From: a virus | Virus record (IMG/VR): IMGVR_UViG_3300021432_000039 | Span: 1-22,589 of that record | Reading direction: 5' to 3' (one strand) | DNA length: 22,589 nt | In this document: one piece after another, positions 15,699 through 22,029 of the stretch | Position numbering within the stretch: position 1 is the stretch's first letter | Layout: every line of letters starts with the position of its first letter | Notes under the pieces: model-generated | The model's database searches: none | What the model saw: the letters and a program-made list of their open reading frames with translations, nothing else | What the model was told of the DNA's origin: nothing | Made by a program: the position numbers and the translations under genes

Positions 15699-15766
15699 GT
15701 CCATTTGCAACGGATAGCCGAAGGGCCTGCGGCTTAGTGACGGGCTCAATAAGAGGTTAGCTAACA

Positions 15767-16465
15767 ATGGCTAAGATACAGATACCAATTCCGAAGGCGG
15801 GTGTGGGCGTCACGTTCGAGGTGGATACAGACACCTTCAATGATGACAAGTTCCCGCTGCCGGTTTACCTGGAGATCATGCTTCAGGGGTGCAAGACCTT
15901 GCTTAACAGAGGCCAGAGCAAGCTCAAGTCGAGCAAGGGCCTGGAAGGGAATGCGCTTACAGCGGCACAGGCAGCCATCCTGGCCGTGGTGCAGGTGCAA
16001 TATGAGGCCATGCTGAAGGGCGAGACGAGGATCACCGGAGGCAAGGCGAAGCTCAAGGGCGTGGAACGGGAAGTCAAGGCCGAGGCCATGCGGCTTGCGC
16101 GCTTGGCGGTACGCGATGCGATCAAAGCCTCTGGTGGCAAGATCAGTCACTACTCCGCCAAGAAGATCACCGAAGCGGCGGAGGAGGTCCTTGCAGATGA
16201 GGAGCGTGGGCCGCAGTTCATGGAGATCGCGAAGGCGAACGTTGCCAAGCGGCATGAACTCGATGAAGGGGCGAAGACCCCGGATGAGGCCAAGGCGAAG
16301 GGCGCTGCGCTGATTAAGGCGCTTGCGCTGGAAGCCGACCCGAAGCTCGTGGCCAAGGCGGAGAAATCTGCCATGGAGAAGAAGGCGAAGAAGGGAGAGA
16401 AGGTCTCCGCTGGGGTGCTGGCACAGGCGAAGCCAACAGCGGGCCAGAGCCACGCGAAGCATTAA
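15767..16465 (+). CDS. Phage hypothetical protein with lysine/alanine-rich C-terminus
   Basis: This is 232 residues from ATG at 15767. Residues about 1-90 include VGVTFEVDTDTF, LPVYLEIMLQGCKTLLNRG and ILAVVQVQYEAMLKGE. The middle (about 90-160) is helical and charged (RLARLAVRDAIKASGGKISHYSAKKITEAAEEVLADEE). The last 70 residues are dominated by K and A (AKAEKSAMEKKAKKGEKVSA), like histone H1-type or other basic tails that bind DNA non-specifically. A nucleic-acid-binding role is therefore possible, but this is inference from composition. It is followed by a strong hairpin terminator. Confidence 0.7.
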   Translation: MAKIQIPIPKAGVGVTFEVDTDTFNDDKFPLPVYLEIMLQGCKTLLNRGQSKLKSSKGLEGNALTAAQAAILAVVQVQYEAMLKGETRITGGKAKLKGVEREVKAEAMRLARLAVRDAIKASGGKISHYSAKKITEAAEEVLADEERGPQFMEIAKANVAKRHELDEGAKTPDEAKAKGAALIKALALEADPKLVAKAEKSAMEKKAKKGEKVSAGVLAQAKPTAGQSHAKH

Positions 16466-17610: not shown

Positions 17611-17654
17611 TGCCCTGAGTAGTCTGAAAAGGCATACTCAGGGCATTTCTGTTT
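17611..17654 (+). terminator. Rho-independent terminator
   Basis: TGCCCTGAGTA (17611-17621) and TACTCAGGGCA (17635-17645) form a perfect 11-bp stem around a 13-base loop, followed by TTTCTGTTT. It is the strongest terminator in the window and separates the small-gene block from the control region. Confidence 0.82.
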
Positions 17655-17759
17655 CATCTGCCCTGGCCTTCCGGCACCTTACCTGCGTCGAAAGTCGAAC
17701 TCCCACGATCGCTCACGCGACTTCGCCTCACCATCGTGCGATGCCAGCTTCTGCTGGAT

Positions 17760-17817
17760 CAGTAACCCTAGTGGACCCTTGGTGATACTCTGGTGGTACC
17801 CTAGTGATACTCTCAAT
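17760..17817 (+). repeat. Left arm of imperfect inverted repeat, built of ~11-bp tandem units
   Basis: Units read TAACCCTAGTGG (17763-17774), ACCCTTGGTGA (17775-17785), TACTCTGGTGG (17786-17796), TACCCTAGTGA (17797-17807) and a partial TACTCTCAAT. The consensus is close to TACYCTRGTGR at one per helical turn. The arm matches the reverse complement of 17932-17989 in about 50 of 59 aligned columns with one gap on each side. Confidence 0.85.
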
Positions 17818-17860
17818 CTAGGCTTTTGGATCGGGAAGGGCAATGGTGCCCATAGGCTAA

Positions 17861-17887
17861 TTATTTTTTTTTTTTTTTTTATTAAAT
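17861..17887. other. AT-rich core with 17-base T homopolymer
   Basis: Between the two repeat arms lies a segment of only A and T: TTA, then 17 T (17864-17880), then ATTAAAT. This is the only such tract in a GC-rich window. It could be a melting or bending element. Its exact length may be uncertain because homopolymers are error-prone in sequencing. Confidence 0.6.
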
Positions 17888-17931
17888 CCCACCCTCCGAC
17901 CCCCATCGCCCCACTCGGCTCAAAGGTTCCT

Positions 17932-17989
17932 ATTGAGAGTACCACTAGGGTTACTCTAGAGTACCACAAGGGTACCACCAGGGTTACTG
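17932..17989 (-). repeat. Right arm of the inverted repeat, ~11-bp units on the minus strand
   Basis: Read on the minus strand: TAACCCTGGTGG, TACCCTTGTGG, TACTCTAGAG, TAACCCTAGTGG, TACTCTCAAT. The arm mirrors the left arm across a 114-bp centre that contains the T17 tract. The repeats would allow cruciform or long RNA hairpin formation, or symmetrical protein loading. Confidence 0.85.
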
Positions 17990-18078
17990 GCTCTGCGAGA
18001 CCTGCCCAGCGACTCCCAGATCTGCTCACACGCTTTGCACCCGCCTCCATACCCATCGCGGGAACCCGGACTCTTCAA

Positions 18079-18105
18079 CGTGCGATTTATTCACTCCGTG
18101 CGATT
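18079..18105 (+). repeat. Direct repeats CGTGCGATT, operator-like
   Basis: CGTGCGATT occurs at 18079-18087 and 18097-18105, 18 bp apart, ending six bases before the -35 of the 18112 promoter. A third copy, CGTGCGAT, is at 17735-17742. The spacing and position suit an activator or repressor binding on one face of the helix. Confidence 0.5.
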
Positions 18106-18111
18106 ATCTTC

Positions 18112-18140
18112 TTGACTTTGAGGCGGATGTGTGGTACAAT
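18112..18140 (+). promoter_or_regulatory. Near-consensus sigma70 promoter of the helicase operon
   Basis: TTGACT (18112-18117), 17-base spacer, TACAAT (18135-18140). The start is expected near 18147, giving a leader of about 37 bases to ATG 18184. The 14 bases CTTGACTTTGAGGC are identical to the virion-operon promoter on the minus strand. Confidence 0.82.
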
Positions 18141-18183
18141 GCGGACAATGGGACCTCGTCCCGCGCTTAGAAGGCTGACTACC

Positions 18184-18669
18184 ATGACCATGTCCCTCTA
18201 CACCCTCCACTCATCTCCGACCGACGGCGAGTTCATCATCCAGAAATTCAACACGGACTACCATTGTGAGAGCGTGTACGCGCTAACGCAGTCCGAGTGC
18301 CAATGCCCCCAGGGCAACAAGCCCCGGTGCAGGCATCGTACGATGCTGCCGATGTTTCTCAAGCACAACCACATCGGCGACGGCTGGTTCCTTGAATGGG
18401 ACACGCGCCTTTGGCGCAAGCCAGTCAACGACATCAGCATCGACCCACCCGCCCTCGCCGATGAGACGGTAATGGGTACATCGGCTGGCGCGGAGGGGTC
18501 CTCACACACCCCTCCTGCGCCTGAGGTGGAGGCACCCTCGCCACAGGGGATTTCGCCTCCACCTCCTTCGCCACCGGAGGGGAAACAGTCTCCCCAAGCT
18601 GCCGAAGCGGCTCCAGCCAGCCCGGTGGGGGTTGGGGCCATCGTTGTCAAGAGGAGGAAGATACCATGA
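18184..18669 (+). CDS. SWIM-type zinc-finger protein
   Basis: This is 161 residues from ATG at 18184. An ATG two codons later is equally possible. Upstream codons in the frame lie in or before the promoter and are excluded. Residues about 1-75 are a compact domain: YTLHSSPTDGEFIIQKFNTD, then SECQCPQGNKPRCRHRTMLP containing C-x-C ... C-x-H, the SWIM zinc-binding signature. An aromatic closing part follows (DGWFLEWDTRLWRKPV). The C-terminal 75 residues are proline-, alanine- and serine-rich with a basic KRRKIP end. SWIM domains bind nucleic acid or protein partners. As first gene of the helicase operon it may act in replication or recombination, which is inferred from context. Confidence 0.78.
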   Translation: MTMSLYTLHSSPTDGEFIIQKFNTDYHCESVYALTQSECQCPQGNKPRCRHRTMLPMFLKHNHIGDGWFLEWDTRLWRKPVNDISIDPPALADETVMGTSAGAEGSSHTPPAPEVEAPSPQGISPPPPSPPEGKQSPQAAEAAPASPVGVGAIVVKRRKIP

Positions 18670-18845: not shown

Positions 18846-19157
18846 ATGAAAGCCCATCCCCTCTGCCCCTCAATCTTCCGCGACGCGGATACCCTCTACC
18901 TCGACTTCGGGACGATGGTGGTCCCTTTCCCCTTTACTGAAGGGGGCCTAGGCAAAGCCCTGGCCCACATCCCCAACATCTCCGGCCCCCGCGGCGGGCA
19001 CCTCACCGGCCGATCCAACTTTCCCAAGGTCACGACCGTGAAGGGCCACGTCGCCCGCGTTACCTACTCCAAGCACAAGCGGCCGATCCTTGACCTGCCT
19101 GATGGCATGCGCGAAGCGGCCTTAGCCGTGGTCAAGCGCAGGGGGATGGGGAAATGA
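18846..19157 (+). CDS. Conserved phage hypothetical protein
   Basis: This is 103 residues from ATG at 18846, three bases after the previous stop. The N-terminal half has DADTLYLDFGTMVVPFPFTEGGL and GKALAHIPNI, the form of a small beta-alpha domain I associate with phage early regions. The C-terminal half is basic (TVKGHVARVTYSKHKRPILD) and ends in a helix (GMREAALAVVKRRG). No catalytic residues stand out. It may bind nucleic acid. It is coupled to the next gene by ATGA. Confidence 0.7.
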   Translation: MKAHPLCPSIFRDADTLYLDFGTMVVPFPFTEGGLGKALAHIPNISGPRGGHLTGRSNFPKVTTVKGHVARVTYSKHKRPILDLPDGMREAALAVVKRRGMGK

Positions 19158-20423: not shown

Positions 20424-20587
20424 GCCACCTCTGGTCCTGCATCTGGGCCGTCCATGACCACCACTCCGGTTGCGGGGACCTCCTCTGGCTCAACGACGCC
20501 GTCGACGACTGGCTCGCGATCATCTGCTTCATCGCCTTCGGCGGCCTGATCGCCTGGATCACCTACGACCAATGGAGTCACCTTTGA
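20420..20587 (+). CDS. 55-residue small membrane protein
   Basis: GTG at 20420 overlaps the preceding stop (GTGA). A longer reading with an upstream start covers the same frame inside the previous gene and is less likely. The N-terminal half has histidines, cysteines and tryptophans (SHLWSCIWAVHDHHSGCGD). Residues about 32-47 (WLAIICFIAFGGLIAWI) form one transmembrane helix, followed by TYDQWSHL. It is encoded directly before the helicase gene. Its role is unknown; a membrane anchor for replication proteins is one possibility. Confidence 0.58.
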   Translation: MSHLWSCIWAVHDHHSGCGDLLWLNDAVDDWLAIICFIAFGGLIAWITYDQWSHL

Positions 20588-22029
20588 GAGCCCTCAAAGC
20601 CGCCCCTTCCCTCCCACTCACGCCCCCGCCCACCGCCGAGCAGGACCACATCCTCTCCCTGGTGCAGTGCACCACCTCCAACCTCATCATCAAGGCCCTT
20701 GCGGGGTCTGGAAAGACCACTACCCTGGAGATGATTCAAAATGCCCTCGCGCCGCCTGTGCTATGTCTTGCTTTTAATAGACGTATTGCTGATGTCATGG
20801 TTAAACGATTTAAATCCACAACCACAGTCCGCACTTTTAACGGGCTTGGGCATAGAATTTGGAGTACTGCTTGCGCTGGTCGCGTATCTTTAGACCCCCG
20901 CAAAACCCCCGACCTCCTCCGACAACTAATAAAGGAGCTCCCCCGTGGCGAAGCCGGCGAAGCCTGGGAAGTCTACTGGGAAGTCATCGCTGCGATTGGA
21001 TTGGCTAAGTCACTTGGATACATCCCTGATGGAAAATACCCAAATGCCAAACGACTCATCGGAAAAGAAAGCTTTTATGGAATTCTTGGAGAAGAACTCG
21101 GGCCTATCGGCCCCTTCCTCCTCGAAGAGGTCCTCCTCCGCTCGATCAAAGCCGCGTACGCGGGGCTTATCGACTATAACGATCAGGTATATATGCCCGC
21201 ATTGTTCGGTGGTACATACCCGAAGTTTCCGACTGTCCTCATCGACGAAGCGCAAGACCTATCCCCCGTCAATCATCAAATGCTCAGTCACCTCTCAAAA
21301 AGTCGGCTTATTGCAGTTGGGGACCCGTATCAGTCTATTTACCGATTTCGGGGGGCAGAAACCAACGGAATGAGCAAGCTCGCCTCACGCTTCGCTATGA
21401 CCCCCGCCGACCTCAGCGTAAGCTTCCGCTGCCCCAAGGCGATCGTCGAGGCCGTCCGCTGGCGGGCCCCCAACATGCAATGGCTCAAGGAGGGTGGCCG
21501 TGTCGCAAGCCTTCGCAATCCTTCTCCTTCTAGCTTCCTCGATGGCTGCGCCGTTATTTGTCGCAATAACGCTCCCTTATTTGCACTCGCCCTACGACTT
21601 CTTGCTGCTGGTCGGAGTGTTTCTGTCTCTGGGAGCGATGTTGGCCCTCGTGTTGTGGGGATCATGCGGCGACTAGGCGACGAGAATTTACAACGGGAGG
21701 CCCTCCTTGAAGAAATCAACCACTGGCAAACTGAGAAAATCGCAAAGGGCTCGACCACAGCGCCCGATATCGCGGATTGCATGCGAGTTTTTGCAGACTC
21801 TGGAACCACACTTGGACAGGCCATTGCGTACGCTGAGCACTTATTCAAACAGCAAGGAAGCATTCAGCTGCTTACTGGTCATAAAGCAAAGGGGTTGGAA
21901 TGGTCGACTGTCTATCACCTGGACCCCTGGCTCCTCCGCCCCGACGAGCAAGACCTAAACCTCCGCTACGTCATCACCACCCGCGCGATGGAAACTTATT
22001 ACGAAATCAACACGGCGGATATTAAATGA
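20584..22029 (+). CDS. UvrD/Rep-like superfamily 1 helicase
   Basis: This is 481 residues from TTG at 20584, which overlaps the previous stop (TTGA) and has GGAG six bases upstream. ATG at 20572 is an alternative. Helicase motifs in order: Q-motif TAEQ (Q20), Walker A AGSGKTT (40-46), Ia CLAFNRRIA (61-69), II VLIDEAQD (218-225), III AVGDPYQSIYRFRGA (244-258), IV SFRCPKAI (280-287), V TGHKAKGLEW (431-440) and VI RYVITTRAMETYYEI (461-475). The arginine finger is probably R467. It is shorter than cellular UvrD (about 720), with reduced 1B/2B regions. It should unwind or remodel DNA in replication or recombination. Third-position use alternates between GC-rich and AT-rich patches. Confidence 0.9.
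   Translation: MRALKAAPSLPLTPPPTAEQDHILSLVQCTTSNLIIKALAGSGKTTTLEMIQNALAPPVLCLAFNRRIADVMVKRFKSTTTVRTFNGLGHRIWSTACAGRVSLDPRKTPDLLRQLIKELPRGEAGEAWEVYWEVIAAIGLAKSLGYIPDGKYPNAKRLIGKESFYGILGEELGPIGPFLLEEVLLRSIKAAYAGLIDYNDQVYMPALFGGTYPKFPTVLIDEAQDLSPVNHQMLSHLSKSRLIAVGDPYQSIYRFRGAETNGMSKLASRFAMTPADLSVSFRCPKAIVEAVRWRAPNMQWLKEGGRVASLRNPSPSSFLDGCAVICRNNAPLFALALRLLAAGRSVSVSGSDVGPRVVGIMRRLGDENLQREALLEEINHWQTEKIAKGSTTAPDIADCMRVFADSGTTLGQAIAYAEHLFKQQGSIQLLTGHKAKGLEWSTVYHLDPWLLRPDEQDLNLRYVITTRAMETYYEINTADIK

Follow-up and report, generated by a model that had tools for sequence, protein, structure and literature searches.

For most lytic phages, the site at which replication starts has yet to be mapped. This report concerns a quasi-palindrome at positions 17760–17989 of a 22,589-nucleotide viral DNA (IMG/VR record IMGVR_UViG_3300021432_000039; the whole of this 22.6-kb phage fragment is called the window below), in which two arrays of ~11-bp repeats face each other across an AT-only core, and which we propose is probably the replication origin of the phage. 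An earlier note, made from the letters of the window, had suggested such an origin and regarded its facing symmetry as unusual. The symmetric layout is not a new category, since the origins of staphylococcal pathogenicity islands (SaPI), oriS of herpes simplex virus (HSV), and archaeal origins with origin recognition box (ORB) repeats are precedents, all of them outside lytic phages.

SaPI origins consist of two opposed sets of iterons around an AT-rich stretch. The initiator helicases of SaPI and of staphylococcal cassette chromosomes (SCC), namely SaPI Rep, Cch, and Cch2, bind iterons through their C-terminal domain and seem to do so as two hexamers (PMC7581432). These are MCM-like AAA+ helicases with a C-terminal domain of DNA-binding type, an architecture that the DUF3987 proteins encoded by relatives of the window appear to match in predicted structure. 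The present locus differs from the SaPI arrangement in that SaPI origins lie directly downstream of rep, whereas the palindrome lies 7.8–22 kb upstream of the DUF3987 gene (roughly 13–20 kb in most relatives). Likewise, SaPI units are 5–6 bp long, whereas those described here are 11 bp and are accompanied by a long inner stem and a homopolymer core, and the candidate binder of the units, DUF3987, belongs to a different helicase family.

The other precedents share parts of this layout. Like the palindrome, HSV oriS combines inverted initiator boxes, an AT-rich spacer, and hairpin-forming potential (PMC12543377), but it has one or two boxes per side rather than about five, and its initiator is the superfamily 2 helicase UL9/OBP (PF02399), for which neither the 13 genomes searched nor the positive control gave a match. 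Archaeal oriC with ORB repeats is a precedent for the symmetry (PMC4010727) but needs Cdc6/Orc1 beside the origin; none turned up in general family scans, although no search aimed at Cdc6/Orc1 was made. In lambda ori and iteron plasmids, initiator repeats phased with the DNA helix stand next to an AT-rich element (PMC5043065), whereas the lambda repeats occupy one side of the AT region only and host DnaB is loaded through O and P. No DnaB helicase was found in the 13 genomes searched. The face-to-face loading of two rings that we envisage for the palindrome would, on our best reading, resemble in its logic the self-loading initiators of SaPI/SCC and HSV oriS.

Anatomy of the palindrome

When the window was compared with itself, 17760–17989 was its strongest inverted repeat (score 59, E 9e-20; runner-up 22). 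The outer arms (17760–17818 and 17931–17989) are identical in 50 of 59 columns when the left one is aligned, with gaps, to the reverse-complemented right one, and are built of ~11-bp units, as the earlier note had described. Its arm length of 58 bp fits these outer arms, but the similarity runs further inward, to 88 columns, with a score of 40 against 9.1 ± 0.9 (maximum 11) for shuffled sequences. The left array (17766–17818, + strand) holds five units (near CYCTNRTR + 3) that point toward the core and start at 17766, 17776, 17788, 17799, and 17810, giving spacings of 10, 12, 11, and 11. The five units of the right array (17932–17986, − strand) also point toward the core and are spaced exactly 11 bp throughout (starts 17932, 17943, 17954, 17965, and 17976). 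Inside the arrays, the alignment defines a left inner stem (17819–17857) that is partially complementary to the right inner stem at 17888–17931 (e.g., GGGCAATGG / CCATCGCCC).

The stretch of 17 T noted previously occupies 17864–17880, within a 30-bp AT-only stretch at 17858–17887. This core, the proposed DNA unwinding element, ranks first among the 30-bp sites of the window for low stability (z 4.8), so that the palindrome has the easily melted AT-rich element typical of iteron origins adjacent to its repeats. With DNA parameters, a single strand of 17760–17989 also folds far better than shuffled sequences (z −7.2). The element sits between a terminator-like hairpin (17611–17645) and a promoter (18112–18140), a position that the earlier note had read correctly. 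Its description of the region as non-coding needs some qualification: weak open reading frames (ORFs) overlap the palindrome on both strands (17779–18669, +, with a TTG start; 17679–18056, −), but the real start of the gene to the right is likely the ATG at 18184. A bacterial oriC was considered and rejected, as no DnaA box (TTWTNCACA) occurs inside 17760–17989.

Conservation in related phages

Relatives were collected via the superfamily 1 (SF1) helicase of the window, and the locus of each was compared with itself, blind, for inverted repeats. Most loci with enough upstream sequence contained one outstanding quasi-palindrome of 190–400 bp, located 3–9 kb upstream of the helicase gene, and this included relatives that have no T-run. 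The arrangement is thus kept at the syntenic place in related phages, a comparison that the earlier note had suggested as a check on its origin reading. The five closest T-run relatives carry T21–T28 at the corresponding place, and the cores of other members consist of A-runs, TATATATA (TATATA), CTCTCT, or CACACA; the T-run itself is therefore not what is conserved. Wherever the core is a long homopolymer (at least 12 nt), no site of the locus is less stable, and in the Caulobacter phage Kuura the core is the least stable site of the whole genome. In the stability ranking, CTCTCT and CACACA cores show only a weak melting weakness. Runs of A or T of at least 12 nt are rare, with five in 835 kb of complete genomes, and three of these lie inside palindromes.

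The repeat structure is equally regular across the family. Helically phased tandem repeats, as expected of an iteron origin, are evident over 58 arms as an 11-bp periodicity (z = 19.5, 13.8, and 8.3 at lags 11, 22, and 33, respectively). A motif search by expectation maximization collapsed to composition, and the unit pattern was instead read from the arms; its enrichment over background is partly circular for that reason, with orientation and spacing unaffected. The family unit, near CYCTNRTR, faces the core 78 times and points away 3 times, with spacings of 11 or 22. Arm letters differ between phages yet change together within one phage: in 27 of 29 phages, the left arm is matched best by the right arm of the same phage, with a mean score of 38 versus 10.5 with the arms of other phages. 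Most mismatches between arms are transversions, and those compatible with G-U pairing are only slightly in excess (145 vs 106).

Several observations concern individual genomes. No clear palindrome lies upstream of the helicase gene in G017, G020, or G038, the last of which carries a T22 run whose arms are no better than shuffled sequences and which possibly marks a degenerate or a different origin. A second long homopolymer (A21, 2393–2413) without facing arrays occurs in L103. Two relatives, G001 (IMGVR_UViG_3300050821_005377) and G037, are circular assemblies broken exactly at the homopolymer, and the copies in G001 read T24 and T28, which suggests run-length variation or assembly slippage. 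Among cultured relatives, candidate palindromes in 119X, LS06, VS-ABTNL-3, and Kuura were partly picked by eye, are of modest significance, and should be taken as tentative; the part of Tiera that was examined contains none. Kuura (L168), a cultured distant relative of this uncultured family of short-tailed phages, has a weak facing-repeat palindrome around A12 at 43050–43270, and its cumulative skew maximum falls there too.

Association with a replication module and DUF3987

A DUF3987 gene is present in all 15 genomes tested other than the incomplete window, whose own copy would be expected downstream of the helicase operon, beyond the fragment, as in relatives. The palindrome goes with the replication genes. 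Strong palindromes (with T8 and A13 cores) accompany DUF3987 in G044 and G046, in which tblastn detected no homolog of the family terminase, portal, or capsid, a failure that is no proof of non-homology. Such phages, which carry the palindrome, share only the replication genes (uracil-DNA glycosylase-exonuclease/PolA and DUF3987) with the family, and Kuura has replication genes common to the family together with an unrelated terminase and portal.

A structure of DUF3987 predicted from a 43-sequence alignment was confident (predicted local distance difference test, pLDDT, of 88, against a poor 52 for an earlier 9-sequence fold), and its best PDB matches were MCM helicases. Its C-terminus comprises helices plus two strands and appears winged-helix-like on the basis of secondary structure only. 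The protein is thus modeled as an AAA+ helicase of MCM type whose C-terminus resembles a winged helix, and DUF3987 had been predicted earlier as a replicative helicase (PMC5862659). Matches to pentatricopeptide designs were dismissed as chance, as they involve a short stretch in artificial proteins. The earlier note had looked to the SWIM protein and the product of the gene at 18846 as initiator candidates; the SWIM gene proved patchy in its distribution, and the conserved partner of the palindrome is the DUF3987 ATPase.

GC skew and the replichore boundary

In the window, the major GC-skew switch, from + to −, is found ~0.4 kb away from the T-run. Because many relatives were assembled as circles, their skew could be detrended in circular form. 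Among 14 complete genomes (related and so not independent, and one of them, G022, with a weak palindrome), skew peaks between −2.3 and +2.6 kb of the palindrome and reaches its minimum roughly opposite, 19–25.5 kb away, on circles of 46–52 kb. In G001 and G007, + strand genes are G-rich at third positions to the left of the site and C-rich to its right, and the reverse switch is located between tail genes that run in one direction; in these two genomes the switch is positional and independent of gene strand.

The switch is closest (about 0.4 kb) in the T-run subgroup, in which an early + strand gene block (15.7–17.6 kb in the window; 23370–26790 in G007) lies left of the palindrome. In others (L117, L118, and L146) this block, its coding strand still G-rich, lies to the right; one of the two, palindrome or block, has therefore changed place. 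Given the offset seen outside the T-run subgroup and its association with the early block, the skew supports a replication boundary here but does not by itself tie that boundary to the palindrome. A skew switch near the palindrome had been proposed as a check in the earlier note, and one is present, 0.4 kb away in the window and within 2.6 kb in complete relatives, but its polarity runs counter to the bacterial convention. With the palindrome as origin, leading strands in this family would be C-rich; more distant relatives show the usual polarity. In G046 (−1.2 kb), 119X, VS-ABTNL-3, LS06, and vir526, it is the skew minimum that lies near the candidate palindrome, at roughly 0.3–2 kb, although it may follow gene strand there. 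Because these distant phages, whose palindromes or candidates sit close to the junction of early and late genes, have a minimum nearby, polarity is not conserved but the boundary is. A comparison of the family skew minimum with the antipode or a tail gene was not decisive.

A model for initiation

Synteny, the skew switch, and the improbability of a mere RNA hairpin all favor the origin interpretation of the earlier note, and we consider it probable that the palindrome is the phage replication origin. We postulate that an initiator, most likely the MCM-like DUF3987 protein or a partner, binds the 11-bp units of both arms, and that the facing orientation of these units would lead two oligomers to assemble head to head, one on each side. 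The oligomers would then strain and melt the AT-only core, with possible extrusion of the inner stem as a cruciform, and two ring helicases would be loaded and depart in opposite directions, resulting in presumably bidirectional theta replication of the circularized genome. The PolA-type polymerase, Sak4, the Cas4-like nuclease, and the SF1 helicase would act after opening.

A bolder version of this proposal, possible but rather doubtful, is that the facing 11-bp arrays set two DUF3987 rings head to head, with a homopolymer or alternating core between them, as a phage counterpart of the archaeal and eukaryotic MCM double hexamer, which would constitute a new class of origin licensing. In such a system, arm sequences would drift fast but in step within each phage. 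The precise, computable signature of facing 11-bp arrays and a weak core beside an early promoter picks out the likely origin of dozens of uncultured phages, and links it to the poorly characterized MCM-like helicase family DUF3987. It also prompts the questions of what makes the two arms of one phage evolve together and what lies behind the inverted GC skew of this family.

Alternative explanations

Several results weigh against an origin at the palindrome. A clear palindrome is missing from two of 16 complete family genomes (G017, and G020, where it is weak). In a Mantel test of arms against proteins no protein stood out, similarity of arms between phages tracking the C-terminal domain of DUF3987 no better than other proteins. 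Outside the T-run subgroup, the skew switch is 1–2.6 kb off and follows the early gene block of varying side, and the passage from G-rich to C-rich across the palindrome is, by bacterial convention, the polarity of a terminus. Finally, the ends of Kuura have been determined with PhageTerm as 606-bp direct terminal repeats (PMC9959647), the second copy of which begins inside the weak Kuura palindrome, at 43208, past the A12 core (43141) and short of the right array.

This last result bears most on the idea that the palindrome is a genome terminus or packaging site, at which the small terminase binds the arrays, or a hairpin forms, and the concatemer is cut beside them to give terminal repeats, with replication starting elsewhere, for example at the skew minimum. 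Canonical skew polarity would likewise make the palindrome a terminus, and some contigs (G001, G025, and G037) end at or near it. We nevertheless regard packaging as unlikely. The contigs in question come from circular assemblies, which show k-mer overlaps or were broken in homopolymers, and the Kuura arms are only modestly above shuffled sequences. The palindrome adjoins an early promoter and is itself about 5 kb from terL/terS, and it occurs with replication genes in G044 and G046, which have no detectable family terminase, portal, or capsid, and in Kuura, whose terminase and portal are unrelated to those of the family. The skew minimum, for its part, falls in coding DNA and has no constant gene position.

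The arrays might instead serve in regulation or segregation, as an operator or centromere-like site for the early promoter or for DNA positioning, bound by a ribbon-helix-helix repressor or by ParR on an array of the R1 parC type. The parC site of plasmid R1 has 11-bp repeats in two sets of five, which the two arrays recall, and most relatives have a promoter immediately beyond the right arm. However, the R1 parC repeats are direct, an operator needs neither an AT or homopolymer core nor strict mirror symmetry, and the distance from palindrome to promoter varies, up to 264 bp, all of which makes this explanation very unlikely. ParM (PF06406) gave no match in the genomes searched, and its positive control was silent too.

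A replication terminus or fork trap, in which opposed arrays halt converging forks and the origin lies on the opposite side, is hardly probable at all. The skew maximum at the palindrome does have the polarity of a bacterial terminus, and the layout of the arrays recalls that of opposed Ter sites, but the AT-only core and the adjoining early promoter are features of origins, and it is the minimum that lies near the candidate palindrome in the five distant phages named above, with the same caveat about gene strand. That the element acts only as a long RNA hairpin, a transcribed regulator or terminator, is barely credible despite its complementary arms and its strong fold relative to shuffled sequences, as it is probably untranscribed, lying after a terminator and before a promoter, its mismatches are mostly transversions with little G-U excess, and the 11-bp periodicity would be left unexplained.

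Three further candidates were rejected. The sole Rfam match, to a plant miRNA, was far below cutoff and is an artefact of the long hairpin. A hairpin telomere of the N15 type and an attP or integration site were set aside after searches of 13 genomes found neither a protelomerase (PF16684) nor a tyrosine integrase (PF00589), the controls being positive in both cases.

Neighboring features

The terminator-like hairpin at 17611–17645 (+ strand), which ends the upstream + operon, has a perfect 11-bp stem (17611–17621/17635–17645) followed by a T-rich tail; with a loop of 13 nt, it escaped the automatic scan. In G001, the corresponding place is taken by a hairpin whose stem is different. On the other side, a sigma-70-like early promoter (TTGACT-17-TACAAT; 18112–18140, + strand) lies 122 bp right of the palindrome, and a near-consensus promoter is found just right of it in most relatives. 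The first early gene (18184–18669, + strand) encodes a SWIM-like CxC...CxH protein, homologs of which occur in several genomes but not throughout the family, and the UvrD/Dda-like SF1 helicase used as the query for relatives is encoded at 20470–22029 (+ strand).

A distant nucleotide search found no match for the window among cultured phages, and a profile search with the helicase found no relatives in GTDB genomes, so that no host was assigned. The portal of the window resembles those of podoviruses such as phiV10 and BPP-1. At 15761–16465, two long ORFs on opposite strands (233 aa, −; 232 aa, +) overlap almost fully.
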